Shown here: in pieces, positions 32,188 to 46,401 of the stretch
Numbering within the stretch: the first letter of the stretch is position 1
How the letters are laid out: each line of letters starts with the position of its first letter
DNA from: Prevotella sp.
GTDB lineage: Bacteria > Bacteroidota > Bacteroidia > Bacteroidales > Dysgonomonadaceae
Assembly (NCBI GenBank): GCA_031285625.1
Contig: JAITVV010000071.1
Coordinates: forward strand, 1-64,000
Length of the DNA: 64,000 nt
Direction: 5' to 3'
Position numbers and translations under genes: made by a program
Notes under the pieces: model-generated
The model's database searches: none
Told to the model about the DNA's origin: nothing
What the model saw: only the letters and a program-made list of their open reading frames with translations

Positions 32188-32409
32188 ATGTACTGGACTT
32201 TAGAATTAGCATCAAAATTAGAAGATGCACCATGGCCTGCAACAAAAGAAGAGTTGATTGACTATGCCCAACGTTCGGGTGCACCTCTTGAAGTTATAGA
32301 AAACTTACAGGAGATAGAGGATGAAGATGAGATTTTCGATACTATCGAAGACATCTGGCCTGACTATCCTAGTAAAGAAGATTTCTTCTTCAACGAGGAC
32401 GAGTATTAG
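32188..32409 (+). CDS. DUF2795 family small acidic protein; integration target
   Basis: A 73-residue acidic protein with the DUF2795 pattern (APWPATKEELIDYAQRSGAP). Function unknown; related proteins are small and cytoplasmic. Its last codons are the insertion point of the mobile element: the final 22 bases before the stop occur again at 42413-42434, where they again read out FFNEDEY-like codons and a stop. The C-terminus present here may therefore be supplied by the element. Confidence 0.85.
   Translation: MYWTLELASKLEDAPWPATKEELIDYAQRSGAPLEVIENLQEIEDEDEIFDTIEDIWPDYPSKEDFFFNEDEY
32386..32407 (+). repeat. Left attachment site (attL) core
   Basis: Fourteen bases TTCTTCAACGAGGA, then C, then GAGTATT. 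The same order is found at 42413-42434 with T in place of C. It covers the last codons of the DUF2795 gene. Confidence 0.8.
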
Positions 32410-32453
32410 AGGTAAAAAATTGTAAAATGCTTTAAAATAAAGCGTATATACAG

Positions 32454-32492
32454 GAGATTAGGGTAACAAATAATTACTTTAATCTCTTTTTT
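32454..32492 (+). terminator. Element-side terminator copy after the DUF2795 gene
   Basis: GAGATTAGGGTAA (32454-32466) and AATCTCTTTTTT (32481-32492) form an imperfect hairpin with a T-run. The same two words flank the perfect hairpin at 42477-42516, at nearly the same distance from the 22-base repeat (68 versus 64 bases), so this looks like a diverged copy of the gene's own terminator. Confidence 0.7.
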
Positions 32493-32523
32493 ATGCCTTT
32501 TTTTACTATATTTGTTACCCTAA
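32458..32523. repeat. 15-base inverted repeat before the integrase gene
   Basis: TTAGGGTAACAAATA (32458-32472) and TATTTGTTACCCTAA (32509-32523) are perfect complements. The right arm overlaps the integrase -7 box; a further GGGTAAT word lies at 32539-32545. Candidate arm-type integrase or excisionase sites, or an operator. Confidence 0.55.
32507..32514 (+). promoter_or_regulatory. -7 box of the integrase promoter
   Basis: TATATTTG, inside the right arm of the inverted repeat, so binding there could repress integrase expression. Confidence 0.5.
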
Positions 32524-32567
32524 ACGCAACCCTATAAAGGGTAATATTCCTAAAAAAATACATAGTA

Positions 32568-33908
32568 ATGGGTAGAAAGAAAGCTGACAGACCAACAGGA
32601 AAGTTTAAACTTCGTACAGACCAAAGCAAAGACGATGGTAAATATACCTTATATTTAGAATATAGTCTGAATAGAAAATTTGCAAAAACTACCACAGAAT
32701 ATAAATTTAAGCCTTCAGAATGGGATGATAAGAATCAAAAAGTAAAAGGAACTGTTCCAAACTATAATCGTATCAATGCTCAATTATCCAAGCTTAAAAA
32801 TGGCATTGATGCAGCTATTATTGATTATCTTGATAGAACAAAGGGTAACACAAAGAGAAGGTTAACTATTGACATCTTACGAAGTATTGTCCAGCGAAAA
32901 CCAATTACGACATTAGGCAAAGTAGAAAACAACGAATTTTTCGCTATGGCTAATAAAATTCAAGAAGATGAATATTCACATGGAAAAAATTCTTATAGCC
33001 TTTATAAGAATAAGCTAAATCAGATAGATATATTCAAAAAGTTTGTTTCTAAAAAGATAGGTGAGCAATTTATTAATTGTGATGACATTGATATTGACCT
33101 GATAAATGATTATATTAAATGGCGTATAGATAGGGGAAATAAACCTGTTACTATTAATAAAGCTCTCGTCCCAATCAATCAAACTCTAAAAATAGCAAGT
33201 ATTAAAGGCTTTGCTAATGCAGAGATGGCATATTTAATATCAAAATCGTATCTACCTATCAAGACTAAATTGAAAGATGAAGAAGACGAGGAAGATGATG
33301 TAAGATATTTAACAGAGGACCAGATAAAATCGTTATTAGAATTATATCCAAAATTGCATATTAGAACAAAAGATTATATAGATATGTTTCTTTTTGTAAT
33401 TCATACAGGATTACGAGTTTCTGATATAATAACTTTGCGATGGATAAATATTGATATTGAGAAAAAAGAACTGAATAAGATACTATATAAGGGAGACATT
33501 AAACTATCGACACCCCTAACAGCACCAGCTATAAAGATTTTAAATAAATGGAAAGAACGCAATCTAAATGATGTTTTTGTTTTTGACATCCTGCCTTCTG
33601 ATTTTAATTTACAAGACGTTCCATTACTTGACAAAATGCGTATCAATAAAAATCGTTCAATTCTTACATCATTAAATGAAGTCGGTAATAAATTGGAGTT
33701 GGCTTTCAAAATGGGTATGCACGTAGGTAGGCATACATTTGCAGTTTTAGCCTTAAACAGAGAAGTAAACTTGCATATTTTAAGTCAGTTATTGGGACAT
33801 TCAAGTATATTAGTTACAGAAAAAGTGTATGCTAAATTCTTGCCTAAAACAATAAAAGAAGAAGTTGAAACCAAACTCGATTTCAACTTCCTTCCTGATG
33901 GATATTAA
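32568..33908 (+). CDS. Tyrosine recombinase (phage integrase family)
   Basis: A 446-residue integrase with an N-terminal arm-binding region (GRKKADRPTGKFKLRTDQS and following), a SAM-like core-binding domain (about residues 120-215) and a catalytic domain. Catalytic residues visible: Arg283 in HTGLRVSD, His385-x-x-Arg388 in HVGRHTF, His in LLGHSS and Tyr421 in EKVYAKF. It should cut and rejoin the attachment sites of the element. Its place next to attL and pointing inward is the usual layout. All catalytic residues are present, so excision may still be possible. Confidence 0.95.
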   Translation: MGRKKADRPTGKFKLRTDQSKDDGKYTLYLEYSLNRKFAKTTTEYKFKPSEWDDKNQKVKGTVPNYNRINAQLSKLKNGIDAAIIDYLDRTKGNTKRRLTIDILRSIVQRKPITTLGKVENNEFFAMANKIQEDEYSHGKNSYSLYKNKLNQIDIFKKFVSKKIGEQFINCDDIDIDLINDYIKWRIDRGNKPVTINKALVPINQTLKIASIKGFANAEMAYLISKSYLPIKTKLKDEEDEEDDVRYLTEDQIKSLLELYPKLHIRTKDYIDMFLFVIHTGLRVSDIITLRWINIDIEKKELNKILYKGDIKLSTPLTAPAIKILNKWKERNLNDVFVFDILPSDFNLQDVPLLDKMRINKNRSILTSLNEVGNKLELAFKMGMHVGRHTFAVLALNREVNLHILSQLLGHSSILVTEKVYAKFLPKTIKEEVETKLDFNFLPDGY

Positions 33909-33921
33909 CCAACATATTATT

Positions 33922-34221
33922 TCAGTCATAAGCATAAGCTTCTAAACGATTCTTTTGATAAAAGTACATTATATCCTCATAACTGTATAAAAATTTATCA
34001 CCAACCTGAGTATAGGGTAAATAACCCTCGTCACGATACTTCTTTATCCAATTTTGACCGACCCCTAAAAGTTCGGGAAGGTCTTTATTGGTGTAAAAAG
34101 GTTTTACAATATTATTTTTAGTGTGTTCGATTAGAGTAGAACATAGGTTCTTTAAATCTTTTATCTCTTGTTTCAATTCGTTTAGTTCATCGCTATGAAC
34201 TGCAATCAAAGTGCTCATCAT
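33922..34221 (-). CDS. Helix-turn-helix protein, excisionase-like
   Basis: A 99-residue protein: an N-terminal coiled stretch (LNELKQEIKDLKNLCSTLIEH) followed by a MerR/excisionase-like HTH (KPFYTNKDLPELLGVGQNWIKKYRDEGYLPYTQ, quoted only as YTNKDLPELLGVG and KKYRDEGYLPY). Proteins of this HTH_17 type beside Bacteroidetes integrases act as recombination directionality factors. It is convergent with the integrase. A TTG at 34236 is in frame, but ATG at 34221 is the better start. Confidence 0.8.
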   Translation of the reverse strand: MMSTLIAVHSDELNELKQEIKDLKNLCSTLIEHTKNNIVKPFYTNKDLPELLGVGQNWIKKYRDEGYLPYTQVGDKFLYSYEDIMYFYQKNRLEAYAYD

Positions 34222-34312
34222 TCTGAATTTTAGCAACTTTATTTTTCATGGAATTTCACAATCCCAAGCTATACTTAAAATCATTGTACTTCTATTATTG
34301 AAGTAACCAAAA

Positions 34313-34344
34313 CAAATATACCTTTTTTATTTTTGAAAAACAAA
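34313..34344 (-). promoter_or_regulatory. Consensus promoter of the excisionase-like gene
   Basis: On the minus strand TTTG (34344-34341), exactly 20 bases, then TATATTTG (34320-34313). It predicts a leader of about 85 bases before the start at 34221. Confidence 0.7.
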
Positions 34345-34583
34345 AGAGATTTTAACAAAATTTGAAATGGCATATTTATGGCATCCTTAAATCTATTGAA
34401 CTACTTTATCCCCATTGACCCATCCCTCATATATAAGGGGATTATGTTGTGAATGAATAAATTCTCAAAAAAATTATGTTTAAGAAGGTCATCTATATTG
34501 AACTTTCAAAAATATTGTAATATTTATTTATATAGACTTTGATAGCTCTATGATATGTATAATAATTTAATAAAAATTAAAGT
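34345..34583. other. AT-rich gap in the element
   Basis: No gene seen. It holds a weak hairpin, ATCCCC (34408-34413) with GGGGAT (34437-34442), and otherwise AT-rich sequence upstream of the NUMOD3-like ORF. Confidence 0.4.
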
Positions 34584-34769
34584 ATGAATAAGAGAATTTA
34601 CAGAGAAGCGGATGAGATGACTAAGTACAAAATGAGTTTAAGCAAATCTAATTCATTAAATCCTAACTATGGGAAACCAAGAGATGAGGAAACTAAACAA
34701 AAGATTTCGGATAGTATGAAAAAGTATTGGTCAGAAGTCCCATTTAAAAATGACTTAAATAAAAAATGA
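34584..34769 (+). CDS. NUMOD3-like mini-protein
   Basis: A 61-residue basic protein. The middle, NPNYGKPRDEETKQKISDSM, resembles the NUMOD3 DNA-binding module of homing endonucleases (N-P-x-Y/F-G-K then ETKQKIS), but no nuclease domain is attached. It could be a small DNA-binding protein of the element or a relic of a GIY-YIG/HNH nuclease. Start by ATG at 34584 after an A-rich stretch. Confidence 0.6.
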   Translation: MNKRIYREADEMTKYKMSLSKSNSLNPNYGKPRDEETKQKISDSMKKYWSEVPFKNDLNKK

Positions 34770-34976
34770 AATTTTAGAATTGGATGTTGCCGGATACGGC
34801 AACATCTTTATTTTATATGAATAATATTTTTCATTAACTATTGATTATTTATTTTCAAATTCTATTTTTTATAAAGAAGTTTCATTCTCTCTATCAAGAA
34901 GGGAAATATGTAGCCTGTGGACTACACCACTAATTAGTAAAGTTCACTTGAAGAATAAGAAGTTTAATATTAAAAA

Positions 34977-35996
34977 ATGAATAGTTATGAAAATAAACAT
35001 TTAAAATTTGATACAGTAAAAATTAGAACAAATAAAGAATATTTAAAAGATACATTTATTAAATTCAATCCAAAATATAAATCAAATGGAGAAATAATAA
35101 ATAAATATTATAATTCAAAAGATGATGATAGACTTATTCCCTATAATTTATATATTGGAATTAGTGATAAATCATTAACATTAGAATTTTCATCTAAGAT
35201 ATTATTAGATGATTATCCGAAGCTTATAACAAAAGATACATTCAAACAATGTTTAGAGAATATCAACCAACTTGATATTTGCGCCCTCAATGCTGATTCT
35301 ATTGCAAATGATTGTTATTTTACGAAAGTTCATGTTACCAATGATATAAAATATCCATTCACTGATAATGTATTAGATAGCCTTAATTCAAATGTCAATG
35401 ATTATAGACGTTACCAATGGGAACATTATCGAAAAGACGGCATACGCTTTAAAAAGGATGTAAAATCAATATCCTGCAAAGAGAGTATTGTTATGTACAA
35501 TAAAGAAAAGGAAATTATAAACAATGTAGATTTTCTTTCAATTCTCAGCAAGCCGAATGAAGTAATTGATTATTTTGATGGGGTCACACGTTTTGAAATG
35601 GAGTTGGATAAACCAAAGAAAATATGTGAAGCTCTGAATATTGATACCACCCATATAAGTAAAGTGTTCAATTCAAAGGAAAACCCCTTACTTGTTCAGT
35701 TTAATAAAATTTTTGGAGTAGGAGAGATTAAAAACAGACAATACATTGCTAACTATGAAACCTACGCTATGGATGCTATAATTGAGAAACACAACGGTGA
35801 CATCAAGAAGATAGAACAGGAAATGAAAGACCTGCATGTTTACAGTTCTAATTCTCGTAATGGCTTATCGGAAAGAATGAAGAAGATTAAAGCTCTTATA
35901 GAACAACGAAACGAGAGATTGTATAATTCCAGAGGAATATTGACAGAAATTAGAGAAAAATTAGGCGAAAAAGCACCTATTCCAGCTCAACTATGA
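34977..35996 (+). CDS. Possible replication initiator (phage gene II/X-like)
   Basis: A 339-residue soluble protein. The layout resembles the Phage_CRI/gene II-X family of rolling-circle initiators: a N-terminal part with short beta strands (LTLEFSSKIL, FTKVHVTNDI) and a middle VTRFEMELDKPKKI, similar to the R-F-E-x-x-L segment of that family. The active-site tyrosine cannot be pinned down from the sequence alone. The C-terminal 70 residues are helical and charged. Its place in an integrated element suits a replication or mobilisation role. Assignment is tentative. Confidence 0.5.
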   Translation: MNSYENKHLKFDTVKIRTNKEYLKDTFIKFNPKYKSNGEIINKYYNSKDDDRLIPYNLYIGISDKSLTLEFSSKILLDDYPKLITKDTFKQCLENINQLDICALNADSIANDCYFTKVHVTNDIKYPFTDNVLDSLNSNVNDYRRYQWEHYRKDGIRFKKDVKSISCKESIVMYNKEKEIINNVDFLSILSKPNEVIDYFDGVTRFEMELDKPKKICEALNIDTTHISKVFNSKENPLLVQFNKIFGVGEIKNRQYIANYETYAMDAIIEKHNGDIKKIEQEMKDLHVYSSNSRNGLSERMKKIKALIEQRNERLYNSRGILTEIREKLGEKAPIPAQL

Positions 35997-36092
35997 CACG
36001 CTCAGACTATCATTTTTAGCTTTGAAACCTACTGTTTACGTTGATTTTGGTGTGTGTCGCTTGTAATAGATTATCATGCATGTTTATAAAAG

Positions 36093-36130
36093 AAATAATG
36101 AGGTAGAAAAAAAATCTACCTCATTATTTT
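36093..36130. terminator. Bidirectional terminator between convergent element genes
   Basis: Perfect 15-base stem AAATAATGAGGTAGA / TCTACCTCATTATTT with an A7 loop. It separates the rep-like gene (plus) from the lipoprotein gene (minus). Confidence 0.85.
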
Positions 36131-36145
36131 CTTTATATTTTTATA

Positions 36146-37084
36146 TTATTGTTTATTCCTATCTATTTTATTTAAAATAAACTTTCTGCCTATATTTGTT
36201 TGGTTTGAGCCAGTACCTCTATCATAATAATCATATACCATCTCAATTTTATTTGTTGTCATAGATATTATTTTATAATGGGCTGTAATTTCATCATATG
36301 TAATTTTATTAGATAATTTAAAATAAAATCCATTATTAGTAAAACTTACACTTATACTATGAAATGATATATCAAATTTATCATCGTAATGACTTATCAT
36401 TGAATTATCTATGTATGTTGTGTTAAATCTTAAATAAAATGGATTACTTTCATATTCTTGAAAATTTATAGACCCTTCAAAAAAACCATCTTGTTTACAT
36501 TCCCAAAAAATAGGTCCTTTATCATTAGGGATATGTAATATTTTCGCAATATTTTCCTTATTTATTTGAACAATTTCGGGCACTTCTATTTCGGGAGTTT
36601 CAGGTAGTGTAATTTCACCTTTATACTCGTATTCGTTTTTAAAGTTAAGTGTAAGTGCATTCAGGTTATCATTGTACATATTTTTAATCTTCGCATCATC
36701 AGTAAATGATTCACTTTTGACAATAGTATTGTTATTCAATAGATTAAAAGTAACCTTTGTAGCATATTTGATATAAGTGTAATATACATCGTTAATAGGT
36801 ATTGTTGTACCCTCATCTATATTTGCTTCAATGACGACTTGTACATTATCATTGAACAGCAAGTTAAGATAGGTTGTAACAAAAGTGCTTTTTAGTTGTG
36901 ATTTAGCAATGATAGCCGATTCAACTTTAAGGTCTTTGTTGTTGAAGTTTACGCCATTGTTTGAGATTGCGCCAGTTGTTGTAGGTACAATCGGGTTTGG
37001 GTCAGTATCGTTGTTGTCATCGCTACTACAAGAATAGAATAAGGTCGTTGCCATCAGACACAATGTGAATAATAGTTTTTTCAT
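36146..37084 (-). CDS. Surface-exposed lipoprotein carried by the element
   Basis: A 312-residue lipoprotein: signal peptide with lipobox FYSC, immediately followed by SSDDNNDTD, an acidic stretch of the type that sends Bacteroidetes lipoproteins to the cell surface. The mature part is beta-rich without a domain I recognise. It overlaps the upstream small gene by four bases. It may be an exclusion, adhesion or receptor-masking protein of the element; this is a guess from location only. Confidence 0.8.
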   Translation of the reverse strand: MKKLLFTLCLMATTLFYSCSSDDNNDTDPNPIVPTTTGAISNNGVNFNNKDLKVESAIIAKSQLKSTFVTTYLNLLFNDNVQVVIEANIDEGTTIPINDVYYTYIKYATKVTFNLLNNNTIVKSESFTDDAKIKNMYNDNLNALTLNFKNEYEYKGEITLPETPEIEVPEIVQINKENIAKILHIPNDKGPIFWECKQDGFFEGSINFQEYESNPFYLRFNTTYIDNSMISHYDDKFDISFHSISVSFTNNGFYFKLSNKITYDEITAHYKIISMTTNKIEMVYDYYDRGTGSNQTNIGRKFILNKIDRNKQ

Positions 37085-37275
37085 TCTCTGACCTCCTCTC
37101 TAATTGCGTCTTTTACACTTTTTTCAAGTGTTTCTAAATCGTAGTTAGAATCTACAATAGAACCATTCTTTACAACTTGATATAAGTTTTCACACTTATA
37201 GATGTCTGCAAATTTTTCTTTTTTGATAAAAAAAGTTTTTACCAAAATACCAGAGAATACATTTTTGTTCATCAT
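37081..37275 (-). CDS. Small protein upstream of the lipoprotein
   Basis: A 64-residue protein (MMNKNVFSGILVKTFF ... KDAIREEVRE) with no recognised domain and no signal peptide. It overlaps the start of the lipoprotein gene by four bases, which supports that it is translated. Its start region abuts the structured region at 37.3-37.5 kb. Confidence 0.55.
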   Translation of the reverse strand: MMNKNVFSGILVKTFFIKKEKFADIYKCENLYQVVKNGSIVDSNYDLETLEKSVKDAIREEVRE

Positions 37276-37289
37276 GAAATACGTTCAAT

Positions 37290-37320
37290 TTTGCTCATCA
37301 GCTCCAAATGTGCAGTTTTG
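37290..37320 (+). promoter_or_regulatory. Possible promoter of the structured region
   Basis: TTTG at 37290-37293, 19 bases, then CAGTTTTG at 37313-37320, which differs from TAnnTTTG in its first base. Together with the hairpin and T-run at 37484-37502 it would define a transcript of about 175 bases. Confidence 0.4.
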
Positions 37321-37325
37321 TAAAT

Positions 37326-37502
37326 AGAAAACGTGGAGACTGCTAACTTACTCGCCTCGAGGTCTTGGTCACCCTGCAACAGAATAAGTCGCAGCTCCAC
37401 GTCTATAAAATATAAAGACATGGAGCGATTGACTTACTACCCTGTTGCATGAAAGTTACCAAGTTTCGAGTGCGGGTAATATTAAACGCTTTCGTTTTTT
37501 TT
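37326..37502 (+). ncRNA. Candidate structured noncoding RNA or origin region
   Basis: No ORF. ACGTGGAG-A-CTGC (37331-37343) pairs with GCAGCTCCACGT (37391-37402), a 12-base stem with one bulged A; inside lie ACTTA/TAAGT and the palindrome CCTCGAGG. A second unit at 37416-37480 (from ACATGGAGCG to GGGTAAT) is a diverged inverted copy of the first: shared words, allowing for orientation, are TTGGT-AC, TGCAACAG, TAAGTC and GCTCCA. The stretch is much richer in G and C than the rest of the element. It ends with AAACG-CTTT-CGTTT and a T-run to 37502. Options: a regulatory RNA, a single-strand replication origin, or recombinase binding sites. Confidence 0.5.
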
Positions 37503-37646
37503 AATAAGTCCTTCTATCAAACCATCTCTATGGTATTTGATTGAATTATGATACAAAGATTGATATTTTATTTAAGCCCTGCAAATTATTTCGAATAAGA
37601 TAAATATAATATTCTTTAGTCCAGATAGTTAATTGTTATTATTTAT

Positions 37647-37682
37647 TACACATTTATTAAATTGATGTTCAATAAATGTGTA
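37647..37682. repeat. 12-base inverted repeat in the serine-recombinase promoter
   Basis: TACACATTTATT (37647-37658) and AATAAATGTGTA (37671-37682) are perfect complements with a 12-base spacer, ending 19 bases before the -7 box TATATTTG at 37701-37708. Likely an operator or recombinase site. Confidence 0.6.
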
Positions 37683-37700
37683 TTTAATGAAAATAATAGT

Positions 37701-37708
37701 TATATTTG
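37701..37708 (+). promoter_or_regulatory. -7 box of the serine-recombinase promoter
   Basis: TATATTTG, 22 bases upstream of the ATG at 37731; the -33 region falls on the right arm of the inverted repeat. Confidence 0.5.
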
Positions 37709-37730
37709 TTAAGTATTAAACTTTTAACCA

Positions 37731-38411
37731 ATGGAAGCTAAAAAATATACTTGTTATTATAGAGTGTCTACAAAAAAACAAGGCAAATCAGGATTAGGTC
37801 TTGATGCACAAGAAACAATCTGTAAAAACTACGTAGATGGTCAGAAAGGTATAATCATAAATTCTTTCGTTGAAGTTGAAAGTGGTAAAAATGATAACAG
37901 GGAAAAACTGCATACTGCTATTGCTGAATGTAAGCAAACTAACAGTACTCTGTTAATTGCCAAACTTGATAGGTTATCGAGAAGTGTTGAATTTATTTTT
38001 AGTTTGAAAAATTCAGGTATTAATTTTACTTGTGTTGACCTACCTGAACTCAATACCATGACCTTGGGTATCTTTGCAACCTTTGCACAGAGCGAAAGAG
38101 AGCGTATAAGTGAGAGAATCACAAATGCACTCGCTGAAAAGAAAAAAAAGGGTATTAAACTTGGTAAACCTGAAAACTTACTGAACAACTTTGATAAAGC
38201 ATACAGTAATAGTTTAGCTACTCGACAAGGCAATGCAGTAAACAATGAGAACAACAAAAAAGCAGGTCTTTTGATTGTGTCTTTGCGTGATGGTGGTAAA
38301 ACATGGAATGAGATAACCCAAACTTTAAATGATAATGGTTTTAAAACTCGCAGGGGTGGTGTGTTTGGTATAACTCAGGTGGTGAGGCTGTTCAATAGAT
38401 ATTACTCATAA
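37731..38411 (+). CDS. Serine recombinase (resolvase/invertase family)
   Basis: A 226-residue site-specific recombinase. The catalytic serine is Ser13 in YYRVSTKKQ; AKLDRLSRS and TFAQSERERISERI are the conserved active-site and dimer segments. The C-terminal 70 residues carry a helical region and a compact HTH (TWNEITQTLNDNGFKTRRG). It is smaller than large serine integrases, so it is more like a resolvase or invertase. A second recombinase beside a tyrosine integrase in one element suggests resolution of replication products or inversion of a DNA segment. Confidence 0.92.
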   Translation: MEAKKYTCYYRVSTKKQGKSGLGLDAQETICKNYVDGQKGIIINSFVEVESGKNDNREKLHTAIAECKQTNSTLLIAKLDRLSRSVEFIFSLKNSGINFTCVDLPELNTMTLGIFATFAQSERERISERITNALAEKKKKGIKLGKPENLLNNFDKAYSNSLATRQGNAVNNENNKKAGLLIVSLRDGGKTWNEITQTLNDNGFKTRRGGVFGITQVVRLFNRYYS

Positions 38412-38503
38412 ATTATTGACATATAAAACATTAAGTTTTATCAGATTGTTTATCTATAAGAGAAAAAGAAGCAGATAATCGCATGATTATTGATTAATAA
38501 TTG

Positions 38504-38511
38504 TATTTTTG
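38504..38511 (+). promoter_or_regulatory. Short-leader -7 box before the methyltransferase gene
   Basis: TATTTTTG ends only nine bases before the ATG at 38521. If used, transcription starts within a few bases of the ATG. An AAGGA word lies at 38514-38518 in between; no -33 box is visible, so transcription from the upstream recombinase promoter is also possible. Confidence 0.35.
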
Positions 38512-38520
38512 CTAAGGAAT

Positions 38521-41500
38521 ATGAAACAAAATGTGTCGCTAAACAAGTTTCTGATTCAGTTAGGATTAGAAAAGGTGGTCTTCTTTAAGGACGAAGAAGG
38601 AGTATACTCCTCTGTTCTACACTTTGACATACAGAATAAACTCAAACTAATCAGTCCTGACGCAATCTATATATTCAATAATCAACCTTTAATTTTATTT
38701 TTCGATTTAACTGATAATACAGACGATAAACGAGAGGATGATATTCACAAAAAAGTATGGTCTTTTGATAATTCTCCGATAGCTTTTATTATAAAAAGTA
38801 ATGAAATAAAAGTATACAATGCACTGAATTATATAAAGAACGAGAATCGCTTAGAAACGATTAACTTAACAAGTGATGAAATCATTAATAAATTCTCTTT
38901 TTGGAATTTACAAAGCAGCAATGTTTGGAATTGGTTTCAAGAAAAATATATTGAAACCATACAAAAAAAGGAAACTAAAAAACGTGTAAACGAAAGGCTT
39001 TTTCAGAATATCAGAGATGTGAGAAATGCTTTGATAGATAAGAACAATGACCCTGAGGGAAGTATTCCAAACTCTCTTATTCTTAGATTGATATTTATAA
39101 GATACTTAATAGATAGAAATATTGAAATTGGTTCAGAGTTTATTGATGGGTGTGATACTTATTCAAGAAGATTAAGTTTCAGTAAACTATTACAAGACCC
39201 TGACAAGCTATCTCGGTTATTTGTAAAATTAAATGATAGATTTAACGGTGTTCTATTCAAAGGTGTTGATATAAAGCTAACTACTACACAAGCTGAAAGT
39301 CTATCTGATATCTTCAATGGTGAAGTACCAAAGAAAAACTCATTATTTTATGGCAGTGATTTCTATTTTGAGATATTTGATTTTTCTATAATTCCTGTTG
39401 AAGTAATTTCAGGAATATATGAATCTTTGATTGACCCTGAAACAAGAAATCTACAATCAGCAGTATATACCCCATCTTTTTTAGTTGAATATATTTTAAA
39501 TGATACTATTGATGTTTTCCTAAATGAGAACAATACATCGGAGTGTAAAATATTCGAAGTTGCTGTTGGCTCAGGAATTTTCCTTGTTCAGTCTTTGAGA
39601 AGAATGATAGAAAAGGAAATTGAATTAAAAGGAAATTTAGACAAAGAAGCTTTTAGTGAACGTATTAGAGACATAGCAAAACAAAATTTATACGGTGTTG
39701 ACATCAATAAGGAAGCATTAAAAGTAACATGTTTTTCAATATATATTGCTCTATTAGATTATCAAGAACCTAAAAATATCTATAAATATAAATTTCCTAA
39801 TCTATTGGGAGAAAACTTATTTGAAGCTAATTTTTTTGACACAAAGAATGAGTTTAATCAAGTAATAAATAATGCAAGACCCCAATATATATTGGGTAAT
39901 CCACCTTGGAAAAGTAATAAAGATGATTACCATATAGAATGGTTAAAGTCTAATAAAAAGACTGTTGGAAGATTTGAAATTGCACAATCCTTTCTTCTGA
40001 GGACAAAAGATTTTATGAATCTCGATACCAAAGTTGCATTAATTATTACGAGTACCATTTTCTATAATGTGTCTAAAACAACAAGAGCATTCAAGAATGA
40101 ATTTTTATCAACATACTGTATTAGTAAATTCTTTGACTTGTCCCCTGTCAGACGATTAATATTTGAAGAAAAAGATAGTCCTGCAAGCGTTGTATATTAT
40201 AAATTATCTGAGAATAATGATTACATTAATAATGTAATAGACCATCAATCTGTTAAAATCAACTATTTTCTTAAACACTTTAAAATGTTGGTCATTGAAA
40301 AGTATGACAAAAAAAAGATTTTCCAACGATATTTTATTGAATATGATTGGATGTTTAAAGTTGCTTTATATGGTAATACCTTAGATTTTGTAACCATTAA
40401 TAAAATAGTCGAAAATAAATCAAAAATTAATGATTACATTGATAATAAAACAATATTTAGTGGTGATGGTATCCTAAAAGGAACACCCAAGCCAACCCCT
40501 TTCTCTTTTCTTATTAATTTACCTATTATAGAAAACGAAGAGGTTAAGTCGTATTATACGAATGTCAATATTGAAAAAACAATGACATTAGATGATACAT
40601 ATTTGGAAAGTGGACGAAAATTAGAATTATTTAAGGGAGAACACATATATTTAAAAAGTCAGACTTTAAATGAATCTGATATTGTAGTTTCCTATAATAA
40701 TCAAACCGCCGTTAATCGACATGATGTGATTACGATAACGTCTGAAAATGAAATTGACAAACTGAAAGAAATTTACGCTTTGCTAATCTCAGATATTCAT
40801 ACCTATTATCAATTCCTAACATCTTCTGCATGGGGAGTTTCAACAAGACCTGCAATAAGATTAAAAGAATATAAAAACTTCCCTTGTGTCACATTAAGCA
40901 CACAACATCAGCAAAAGTTAACATCACTAATAAATGATTTTTTTGAAAATTTCATACTCTACTATAGCGATGAGATAAGGTCTGAAACTCTTCCTGTAAA
41001 TAAGAATATATTAAAGAACATAAATAAACTTATTAATGAATTATACAGGATAAATGAAGCTGAAAAGGACTTGATTAATTATGTTCTAAATGTATCGAGA
41101 TATCAATTTCAAGAAAGTAAGCAAGATTTAATAATAGATTTTACACATACGAATAAGAACGATTATAGAAACAAAGAAACTGTCTTAAAGCAGTATGCAG
41201 AAGTGTTCCTACGAGAGATTGAAGACATATATGATAATGAATATATACAAGCAGAAATATATTCATTACATCATTTTGTTGCGGTAAACTTTGTATTTCA
41301 TTCAGACCCGATTAAGGAGAGAATAATATATCAAAAGAATGCAAATATTATTGAATCATTAGAAAAATTGGGAAATCTAAGTATCTCTCAGATTGCAAGT
41401 GTAACTGACCCTACAAAGAACCTATTTATACAAAAAGATATAAAAGGTTTTGAAGATAATTCATTTTATATAATCAAACCTAATGAATATAAATGTTGGC

Positions 41501-41592
41501 ATCGTGCTATGGCATGGTATGATGTTGCTGAGTTTAAAGCGAAGATTGAAGAAGCTGAGTTAGAATATCTAAACAGTAATGAAGATGAGTGA
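38521..41592 (+). CDS. Large adenine-specific DNA methyltransferase (Eco57I/type IIG-like)
   Basis: A 1023-residue protein. Residues 1-110 have the pattern of a nuclease-like domain (SPDAIYIFNNQPLILFFDLTD): P46-D47 then F-D62-L-T64, where a lysine would be expected in an active PD-(D/E)XK site, so this copy may be inactive. A helical part follows (SLILRLIFIRYLIDRNIE), then YTPSFLVEYIL, SAM motif I FEVAVGSGIFLV (345-356) and catalytic motif IV NPPW (460-463). The C-terminal part (SAWGVSTRPAIRLKEYKNFP) looks like a target recognition domain. It should methylate adenine at N6 in a specific sequence. ATG at 38521 is preferred to an in-frame TTG at 38509. Overlaps the next gene by 14 bases. Confidence 0.88.
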   Translation: MKQNVSLNKFLIQLGLEKVVFFKDEEGVYSSVLHFDIQNKLKLISPDAIYIFNNQPLILFFDLTDNTDDKREDDIHKKVWSFDNSPIAFIIKSNEIKVYNALNYIKNENRLETINLTSDEIINKFSFWNLQSSNVWNWFQEKYIETIQKKETKKRVNERLFQNIRDVRNALIDKNNDPEGSIPNSLILRLIFIRYLIDRNIEIGSEFIDGCDTYSRRLSFSKLLQDPDKLSRLFVKLNDRFNGVLFKGVDIKLTTTQAESLSDIFNGEVPKKNSLFYGSDFYFEIFDFSIIPVEVISGIYESLIDPETRNLQSAVYTPSFLVEYILNDTIDVFLNENNTSECKIFEVAVGSGIFLVQSLRRMIEKEIELKGNLDKEAFSERIRDIAKQNLYGVDINKEALKVTCFSIYIALLDYQEPKNIYKYKFPNLLGENLFEANFFDTKNEFNQVINNARPQYILGNPPWKSNKDDYHIEWLKSNKKTVGRFEIAQSFLLRTKDFMNLDTKVALIITSTIFYNVSKTTRAFKNEFLSTYCISKFFDLSPVRRLIFEEKDSPASVVYYKLSENNDYINNVIDHQSVKINYFLKHFKMLVIEKYDKKKIFQRYFIEYDWMFKVALYGNTLDFVTINKIVENKSKINDYIDNKTIFSGDGILKGTPKPTPFSFLINLPIIENEEVKSYYTNVNIEKTMTLDDTYLESGRKLELFKGEHIYLKSQTLNESDIVVSYNNQTAVNRHDVITITSENEIDKLKEIYALLISDIHTYYQFLTSSAWGVSTRPAIRLKEYKNFPCVTLSTQHQQKLTSLINDFFENFILYYSDEIRSETLPVNKNILKNINKLINELYRINEAEKDLINYVLNVSRYQFQESKQDLIIDFTHTNKNDYRNKETVLKQYAEVFLREIEDIYDNEYIQAEIYSLHHFVAVNFVFHSDPIKERIIYQKNANIIESLEKLGNLSISQIASVTDPTKNLFIQKDIKGFEDNSFYIIKPNEYKCWHRAMAWYDVAEFKAKIEEAELEYLNSNEDE

Positions 41593-42310
41593 AGCTTCAA
41601 ACTTTATTTCTAAGCGTAAACAGCCTCTTTCTCTTAGGCAAAAGAATATCCAAAACATACTTTGGTATATGTTAGAATGTTATAGCATAATCCTAAATGA
41701 AGGAAAAACATACTCATTATCAGATATAAAAAAAAGTAACGTAAAACCTGAAAATTATCTCAGAAATAAATTAGTTGATGAATATTTAAGAAAATATACT
41801 CATCTTTTCAAAGAGAAATTTAAGACTGAATATATATTTTTTGATAAAGACACAGAGGAAACATATATTGATGAAAAAGGTAGTGAATCTACTGATAAAA
41901 TCGACATTTATATAAGAAATAAAGCTTTACAAGATTATTGGTCAAATAAGCCAAATGTTTACTATGCAGTGGAATGTAAAAGAATAAAGGAGTTGTCGGA
42001 TACTCAGAAATACATAAATGAAGATACTGTTGGCAAGTTCATAGAAAGAAAGCATACTGAATTTAGACAACCTATTGAAGGACAGCTAGCTTTTATTGAA
42101 AATTCAGATATAAGTCCGCTTAATATAGTAGATGACATAAATAAAAAACTTTGTAAGAACACCAATACAGAATCTCTTTTATCATCAATCGAAGTGCATG
42201 AAATGCAAAAATGTTGTTTTATATCTAAACATAATCGCAGTTTTAATATCAAAAGTAAGTTTAGTATCTATCATTTACTATTAGATTATTCAGATATTGT
42301 GATAAATTGA
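41579..42310 (+). CDS. PD-(D/E)XK nuclease-like partner of the methyltransferase
   Basis: A 243-residue soluble protein of no family I recognise. Asp109 in DKIDIYIRN followed 23 residues later by Glu132-Cys-Lys134 in YYAVECKRI gives the D-x(n)-E-x-K core of the restriction-endonuclease fold, and a helix with Glu68 (NKLVDEYLR) precedes it. It starts inside the end of the methyltransferase gene (ATG at 41579, or 41585), so the two are translationally coupled and probably form one system: methyltransferase marking self DNA, this protein cutting unmarked DNA. Last gene before attR. Confidence 0.72.
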   Translation: MKMSEASNFISKRKQPLSLRQKNIQNILWYMLECYSIILNEGKTYSLSDIKKSNVKPENYLRNKLVDEYLRKYTHLFKEKFKTEYIFFDKDTEETYIDEKGSESTDKIDIYIRNKALQDYWSNKPNVYYAVECKRIKELSDTQKYINEDTVGKFIERKHTEFRQPIEGQLAFIENSDISPLNIVDDINKKLCKNTNTESLLSSIEVHEMQKCCFISKHNRSFNIKSKFSIYHLLLDYSDIVIN

Positions 42311-42412
42311 GGGACGTAAAGTAAGCATTTTCAAAATGTTATAAGTTTCACTAAAATATACCCTTAAAATAATTAATATATTTATAATAAGCAAATTAAT
42401 TGTTAAAATAAA

Positions 42413-42434
42413 TTCTTCAACGAGGATGAGTATT
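42413..42434 (+). repeat. Right attachment site (attR) core
   Basis: Same 22-base order as attL with T for C at one position. It is followed by TGA, so the fragment still encodes the end of a DUF2795 protein. It is probably the native 3' end of the interrupted gene. Confidence 0.8.
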
Positions 42435-42476
42435 GATATTAGAAGTTTGTAACAGGCTAAAAATTAGTATAAAAAA

Positions 42477-42516
42477 GAGATTAGGGTAATTAATAAATTA
42501 CCCTAATCTCTTTTTT
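42477..42516. terminator. Perfect bidirectional terminator at the right flank
   Basis: GAGATTAGGGTAATT with AATTACCCTAATCTC and T/A-runs on both sides; loops AATA. It serves uvrA on the minus strand and was probably the original terminator of the DUF2795 gene. A diverged copy lies at 32454-32492. Confidence 0.85.
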
Positions 42517-45909: not shown

Positions 45910-46401
45910 ATGTTTATAGATAAATGGTGGGGAAATTATATTGGGGGTTCTGACGATTCTTTTTTATTGTTAGACTATTTCGGCACCAGGAATTCTACAG
46001 TTTTCAATTTAAATGATATTTTACAAGAAACAGGGCTTAGTGATTTATTGATAAGTGGAGGGTTGGAAAACGGCGATCTTTCTTTTCAGGTGAAGGAAGG
46101 ATATGTTCCACACTTCGATATGACGATAGATGTATTGATCGATTTATCCGCAATAGTTATAGAATGTTTACATAATCAGCGTGTTGCAATTAAGGATTTA
46201 GATAATTCATCTAACTATTCAAATACAATATCAATTTCTGCAAAACCAGAGGATCTGATGTTACTAACTAACGGTTTGGATAACTTTATCAAGAATCCTA
46301 AATCATATGAGCTATCTGATATGATGGATGAAGAAAGCCTTTCAGAACTGCTTGCAGATTGTAATGAAGTCTGCGAATCTCTCAGAAAATATATTTTATA
46401 A
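45910..46401 (+). CDS. Hypothetical acidic protein
   Basis: A 163-residue soluble acidic protein (MFIDKWWGNYIGGSDDSFLLLDYF ..., shown in part) with no domain I recognise. Nine bases after the PhnA-like gene and 15 bases before an MBL-hydrolase gene, so it is probably part of a three-gene operon. The opening DKWWGNYIGGSDDS may help find relatives; small proteins of this sort are sometimes immunity or adaptor proteins, but nothing in the sequence settles this. Confidence 0.7.
   Translation: MFIDKWWGNYIGGSDDSFLLLDYFGTRNSTVFNLNDILQETGLSDLLISGGLENGDLSFQVKEGYVPHFDMTIDVLIDLSAIVIECLHNQRVAIKDLDNSSNYSNTISISAKPEDLMLLTNGLDNFIKNPKSYELSDMMDEESLSELLADCNEVCESLRKYIL

Follow-up and report, generated by a model that had tools for sequence, protein, structure and literature searches.

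The contig JAITVV010000071.1 of a Prevotella sp. genome (GenBank assembly GCA_031285625.1) carries two overlapping forward-strand genes at positions 38,521 to 42,310 of the 64,000-nucleotide stretch analyzed here (positions 1 to 64,000, hereafter the window). Gene 1 (38521..41592, + strand) encodes a gamma-type N6-adenine methyltransferase of 1023 residues with an MmeI/PglX-like target-recognition region; it starts at an ATG, with an in-frame TTG 12 bases upstream. Gene 2 (41579..42310, + strand) starts 14 bases before gene 1 ends and encodes a protein of 243 residues that resembles PD-(D/E)XK nucleases and is our proposed cutting subunit. The sizes and the overlap of the two open reading frames (ORFs) agree with a preliminary description of this DNA, and the assignment of gene 1 is borne out by Pfam matches to Eco57I (E = 4.8e-16) and MmeI_Mtase (E = 4.8e-10). 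The pair is not peculiar to this genome and recurs across many bacterial phyla.

Gene 1 shows the arrangement that characterizes Type IIG enzymes, a gamma adenine methyltransferase fused to a recognition region, as seen in the Pfam matches, in the alignment of its relatives and in a structure search with the predicted model, for which MmeI is the top structural match. The two methyltransferase motifs picked out in the preliminary description, the core of the S-adenosylmethionine (SAM) motif (G350-S351-G352, 39568..39576, + strand) and the catalytic N460-P461-P462-W463 (39898..39909, + strand), are both invariant in 37 of 37 aligned rows, window included; motif I as a whole varies, reading DPACGSG in 24 of the 37 rows and EVAVGSG in five, the window being one of these. 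The PADLOC profile PDLC03603 (REase_MTase_IIG), which describes single-chain Type IIG enzymes, covers residues 43-1009 with E = 4.2e-127, and this match favors an explanation in which gene 1 encodes a complete Type IIG enzyme of the usual single-chain kind and gene 2 an unrelated or accessory protein. With a threshold of E 1e-15, gene 1 matched nothing in phage records.

The N-terminal region of gene 1 argues against this explanation. Residues ~35-114 (38623..38862, + strand) form a degenerate PD-(D/E)XK-like region in which the preliminary description had read P46-D47...D62-L-T64, lacking the catalytic lysine. This holds for the family, because lysine is found at position 64 in none of the 49 rows that have a letter there (the window and near-copies are among these rows), so that, judged from sequence, gene 1 lacks the functional same-chain nuclease domain expected of a Type IIG enzyme. 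The rest of the motif is partly conserved, with P46 in 45 of 48 rows, D47 in 28 of 48 and D or E at position 62 in 30 of 49. The predicted structure of the region runs helix-strand-strand-helix-strand-strand, with strands at 48-52 and 55-62 followed by a helix at 69-81, and is consistent with this placement of the motif. Because the structure search barely covered the region and comparing its profile with those of intact Type IIG nuclease domains gave no significant match, we infer the PD-(D/E)XK-like assignment from the motif and the predicted fold.

As a single sequence, gene 2 had no credible family match in profile scans, and comparison with PDB sequences gave no credible match either from the single sequence or from a profile. 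Among 22 diverse members of its family, window included, E58, D109 (41903..41905, + strand) and both E132 and K134 of E132-C133-K134 (41972..41980, + strand) are invariant, and their order fits the PD-(D/E)XK superfamily; D109, E132 and K134, the predicted catalytic residues, are those to which the preliminary description had drawn attention. Our initial scan used a single pattern containing ECKR, and the invariance of Y128 and E132-R135 in the resulting 43-row alignment is therefore partly built in. The D109/E132/K134 motif of the 22-row alignment is not a matter of chance, because 14 of its rows were obtained through the methyltransferase, without the pattern that holds ECKR. Pfam PDDEXK_9 is matched by 5 of the 22 members (best E = 3.5e-4), and the predicted structure of gene 2 has the PD-(D/E)XK arrangement, its top structural matches being restriction or defence nucleases with middling Z scores. 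The restriction fold on which the preliminary description had made its proposal depend is thus predicted to be present, and gene 2 is probably a PD-(D/E)XK nuclease, with cutting as its predicted function. We also considered whether gene 2 could be a duplicated or detached copy of the N-terminal region of gene 1, and sequence comparison does not support this (hhalign E = 0.35, over an unrelated stretch). Viral contigs yielded no confirmed relative of gene 2 in a search limited by its pattern.

The weaker structural matches of gene 2 include the two-subunit nuclease BspD6I, which together with the partial conservation of P46 and of an acidic residue at position 62 would suit a heterodimeric cutter, with the N-terminal region of gene 1 cutting one strand and gene 2 the other. 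The absence of the lysine in every row, and the presence of D47 in just over half of them, make such a division of labor highly improbable.

The linkage between the two genes, whose tabulation had been proposed as a check, is nearly complete in both directions. A methyltransferase adjoins the nuclease in 53 of 55 gene 2 loci; of the other two, L025 lies just 184 bases from the start of its contig, and L052 consists of a gene 2 fragment with no methyltransferase in the available DNA. The gap between the genes ranges from -79 to +13 bases, except at L045 (+132) and at L054 (+443), where the nuclease is broken; the methyltransferase is broken at L019 and L024 and split at L090. When the methyltransferase is taken as the starting point, it occurs in the phylum sample at 16 places in 15 of 395 genomes, window included, with gene 2 beside it at 15 of the 16, the exception being L068, whose contig ends 198 bases downstream. 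In the order sample it occurs in 33 of 393 genomes, with gene 2 beside it at 35 of 37 places, and both misses (L201, L202) are at contig ends. The 37 places were examined from a list of 40, the other three being the window and G591, both counted before, and a fragment of the broken gene L185; L181, L183 and L185 repeat L007, L021 and L024. On plasmids, gene 2 stands beside the methyltransferase in nine of nine cases. The methyltransferase loci without gene 2 thus number three overall, each at a contig end, and we ruled out that the methyltransferase exists as an orphan, since gene 2 is present wherever the examined sequence extends far enough. Distant gene 2 members were recognized with a profile extended with nearer hits (E 6.7e-5 or better); the unextended profile misses L082, L089, L093, L192, L195, L197, L198, L205 and L211, and gives L092 only 0.019.

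Control loci of the Eco57I family present the opposite picture. None of the 30 loci listed in a search for other enzymes of that family carries gene 2, two of them (L216, L220) ending fewer than 90 bases past the gene, and an ExK-like N-terminal motif is found in 16 of the 22 that could be aligned by the methyltransferase profile, as against no lysine in any member of the paired family. The close homologs therefore do not have the intact N-terminal nuclease that would have counted against a split system. The six aligned controls without an ExK-like match (L129, whose N-terminus is cut off, L132, L143, L220, L221 and L225) also lack gene 2. The controls mostly keep the motif and have no gene 2, while the pairs have a dead motif; the separate nuclease thus goes with a dead built-in motif. 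The lysine missing from all members, and gene 2 at every examined methyltransferase locus with enough downstream DNA, leave the single-chain Type IIG explanation very unlikely. One control, L132 (G359:C115), has ELT in place of the ELK of its relatives and no gene 2 after it; its protein may be a nuclease-dead copy.

There are signs of recent transfer of the pair as well. Six cassettes from Galbibacter, Leeuwenhoekiella and Zunongwangia (L010-L015) each show at most 9 differences in 3757 bases from L010, a near-identity across three genera of Flavobacteriaceae. On the plasmids of L085 and L091, genes of the TIR or SIR2 families lie near the pair, a setting like that of a defence island.

The paired methyltransferases differ from the controls at the other end of the protein too. 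A profile of 998 positions was built from 37 paired members, and a significant match reaching profile position 960 or beyond was found for 94 of 99 de-duplicated paired methyltransferase ORFs and for 0 of 20 control ORFs, for which the furthest position reached was 866. An earlier count with repeats included gave 79 of 82 against 0 of 16. The paired ORFs without this match are those of L045, L089, L090, L091 and L201. In the window the C-terminal extension of about 150 residues corresponds to residues ~861-1023 (41101..41589, + strand), and we regard it as a candidate dock for the nuclease. Tree distances of gene 1 and those of gene 2 are strongly correlated (r = 0.91 over 41 pairs; maximum of 0.44 in 2000 permutations). 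The 41 pairs leave out L011-L015, L017, L019 and L024, plus seven with a short or missing partner. A correlation of this kind is expected for partners, but equally for any pair of genes inherited together.

In the interpretation that we consider likely, the two genes of the cassette form a Type IIG-like restriction-modification system in which the cutting function is split. The support computed here consists of conservation, linkage, predicted folds, the missing N-terminal lysine, the C-terminal extension and the co-varying trees, from which methylation, docking, cutting and phage defence by the pair are inferred. The MmeI/PglX-like recognition region of gene 1 would bind a short DNA motif, and methylation of an adenine in that motif by gene 1 would mark the DNA as self; the nuclease-like region at the N-terminus of gene 1 is presumably dead. 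Gene 2 would be made alongside gene 1 by translational coupling, dock on it and cut DNA in which the motif is unmethylated; the C-terminal extension, the dead N-terminal region or both are the most likely docking sites. The preliminary description had proposed a split Type IIG-like system in which the cutting activity moved to a separate subunit. The split itself is supported by the fold of gene 2, the linkage and the dead N-terminus, but it is not a plain relocation of the cutting activity: gene 1 keeps a nuclease-like region to which gene 2 has no sequence similarity, which makes the recruitment of an independent nuclease probable. The chances appear about even that these pairs make up an unrecognized, phylum-spanning restriction class, in which a nuclease-dead methyltransferase holds a PD-(D/E)XK nuclease by a C-terminal dock and subunit binding uncouples marking from cutting. 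Such a class would be intermediate in form, with the single-chain Type IIG enzymes on one side and the multi-subunit enzymes of Type I on the other.

A different role for gene 2 would be that of a Type IV-like, methylation-dependent nuclease directed against phages that carry the same methylation. A nuclease that cuts the mark placed by its own operon would be self-destructive, and we give this idea hardly any credence. Somewhat less implausible is a methylation-only defence similar to bacteriophage exclusion (BREX), with gene 1 placing the mark and gene 2 acting otherwise, for example by non-specific DNA degradation or by killing the cell when methylation is low. The neighboring genes bear on this possibility. 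We surveyed 48 loci, after dropping six near-copies (L011-L015, L017), for clusters of flanking ORFs present in at least three loci, and recognized no BREX-like partners among these clusters by eye, a survey that included no BrxC profile scan of the flanks. The window's genome has one PglZ-domain match (G000:C80:63463-64047), on a different contig and in a 522-residue frame, a size that we take to resemble PorX rather than the PglZ of BREX. In addition, gene 2 has invariant catalytic residues, as a working nuclease would, and its pairing with gene 1 suggests that the two proteins are partners. A BREX-like defence is therefore unlikely, and we retain the split Type IIG-like system as the preferred interpretation.

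The same survey revealed no recurring translocase in the flanking clusters, except for Type III Res in 7 of the 48 loci. In these seven (L037, L043, L048, L051, L057, L059 and L060), which span four named phyla, the pair has a Type III mod-like gene on one side and a res-like gene on the other, with two other genes intervening before res in L048. Pfam confirms a mod-like methylase in L037, L048 and L059, and a res gene with its own endonuclease domain in the three loci checked (L037, L043 and L059). Overlaps of 4 bases occur at five of the junctions, with mod in L037, L048 and L057 and with res in L043 and L051. Mapped on the methyltransferase tree, the seven loci require no fewer than four changes, which indicates repeated gain or loss of the Type III arrangement. 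Inside these operons the module may share the Res motor. Most loci have no Type III neighbors in the DNA examined, which implies that the two genes are the minimal unit.

Single-chain Type IIG and IIL enzymes such as MmeI, DrdV and Eco57I share with gene 1 the gamma methyltransferase fused to a recognition region, the length of about 1000 residues and the N-terminal nuclease-like region; the present system differs in the loss of the catalytic lysine, in the added C-terminal extension and in the separate nuclease gene that follows. Type IIG-like systems with the nuclease on a separate peptide have been described by Blow et al. 2016 (PMC4752239), so that "undescribed", as the preliminary description put it, was too strong for the idea. 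In the portion of that paper considered here, AchA6III has a PLD nuclease fused to a translocase, OspHL35III a GIY-YIG nuclease plus a translocase, and MexAMORF1192P, a system unrelated to MmeI, an HNH nuclease plus translocases (PMC4752239). The present pair agrees with AchA6III and OspHL35III, and with the split Type IIG-like definition of that paper, in having an MmeI-like methyltransferase and recognition protein without a working nuclease and a nuclease on another protein. It departs from those printed examples in consisting of two genes with a PD-(D/E)XK nuclease, rather than PLD, GIY-YIG or HNH; apart from the Type III loci, it also has no translocase that recurs beside it.

For HVO_A0006 and HVO_A0237 of Haloferax, the authors of a study suggested that a Type IIG enzyme had been divided, with its nuclease and its methyltransferase in different pieces (PMC4389544). 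As presented there, the Haloferax nuclease is a detached Type IIG N-terminal fragment that is not beside its proposed partner and is rare among Halobacteria, whereas the nuclease described here belongs to a different family, is encoded in an overlapping operon and occurs across phyla. BREX PglX/BrxX has a similar methyltransferase and recognition fold, but the present system has a dedicated nuclease gene. The Type IIB enzyme BcgI is also a multi-subunit relative of Type IIG; according to the section of the source consulted, its separate subunit provides specificity and the nuclease lies within the methyltransferase chain, while here it is the nuclease that is separate (PMC3874165). Pin25611IV of Prevotella intermedia, as listed in PMC5608340, is a methyltransferase followed by a hypothetical gene with a 4-bp overlap. 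We set it apart by its printed coordinates alone, which give a methyltransferase of ~675 residues and a "specificity subunit" partner of ~467 residues. A survey of Streptococcus thermophilus defences contains nothing like the pair in the part covered (PMC12322248). Full-text literature searches turned up no description of the pair; REBASE and the supplementary tables of PMC4752239, the latter reporting 76 new Type IIG-like systems, lie outside that search and may contain members. Split Type IIG-like systems as a kind are thus already in print, and the two-gene version with a PD-(D/E)XK nuclease seems to be a new variant among them.

In the plasmid records gene 1 is named an N-6 DNA methylase in nine of nine cases, and gene 2 a hypothetical protein in eight of nine. 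With the PADLOC Type IIG profile matching gene 1 alone and gene 2 labeled as hypothetical, a recurrent, probable defence system remains half invisible. On present evidence the pair probably represents a widespread DNA-defence system. With the nuclease on a separate protein, the balance that Type IIG enzymes strike between marking and cutting can be tested directly, and a detachable cutting subunit that has a dock of its own would be appealing in the engineering of enzymes with a chosen specificity.

The window cassette lies in a probable integrative element of about 10 kb (32386-42516), in agreement with the earlier suggestion that it is the cargo of a mobile element. Two direct repeats of ~107 bp, 10,027 bases apart and identical in 85 of 109 aligned columns, flank the element. 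The left, attL-like repeat (32386..32492, + strand) includes the terminator and last codons of a small gene that lies downstream of a cobalamin adenosyltransferase gene, and the right, attR-like repeat is at 42413..42516 (+ strand). Just inside the left repeat is a tyrosine integrase (32568..33908, + strand; Pfam Phage_integrase E = 1.3e-19, Arm-DNA-bind_5 E = 1.3e-12), followed, in an excisionase-like position, by a small helix-turn-helix protein (33922..34236, - strand; Pfam HTH_17 E = 9.6e-7), and a serine recombinase adjoins the cassette (37731..38411, + strand; Pfam Resolvase E = 1.3e-24). The element has a G+C content of 28.8%, compared with 36.5% and 35.4% in its flanks. Two further ORFs of the element, 34977-35996 (339 residues) and 36146-37084 (312 residues, with a lipoprotein-like start), match no Pfam family above the cut-off.

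Of 14 loci from the same genus, seven have the left-repeat stretch at the corresponding position, and the short downstream DNA examined at all 14 contained no integrase. No clean empty site with the window's right flank was found among the relatives compared, in which uvrA, the window's right neighbor, is not adjacent to the site. In one relative of the same genus, a shortened integrase followed by a related cassette occupies the same site. One of the 14 loci (L152:993-1097) has, downstream of the adenosyltransferase gene, a piece of the window's serine recombinase with 77% identity over 35 residues, possibly a remnant of a related element. Another (L161:3330-3422) has, about 1 kb past the repeat, a second stretch that is 82% identical to window positions 42341-42434 and is perhaps the right end of another, shorter element. 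Beyond uvrA, window positions 45910-46401 match the Pfam immunity protein family Imm68 (E = 1.4e-32).

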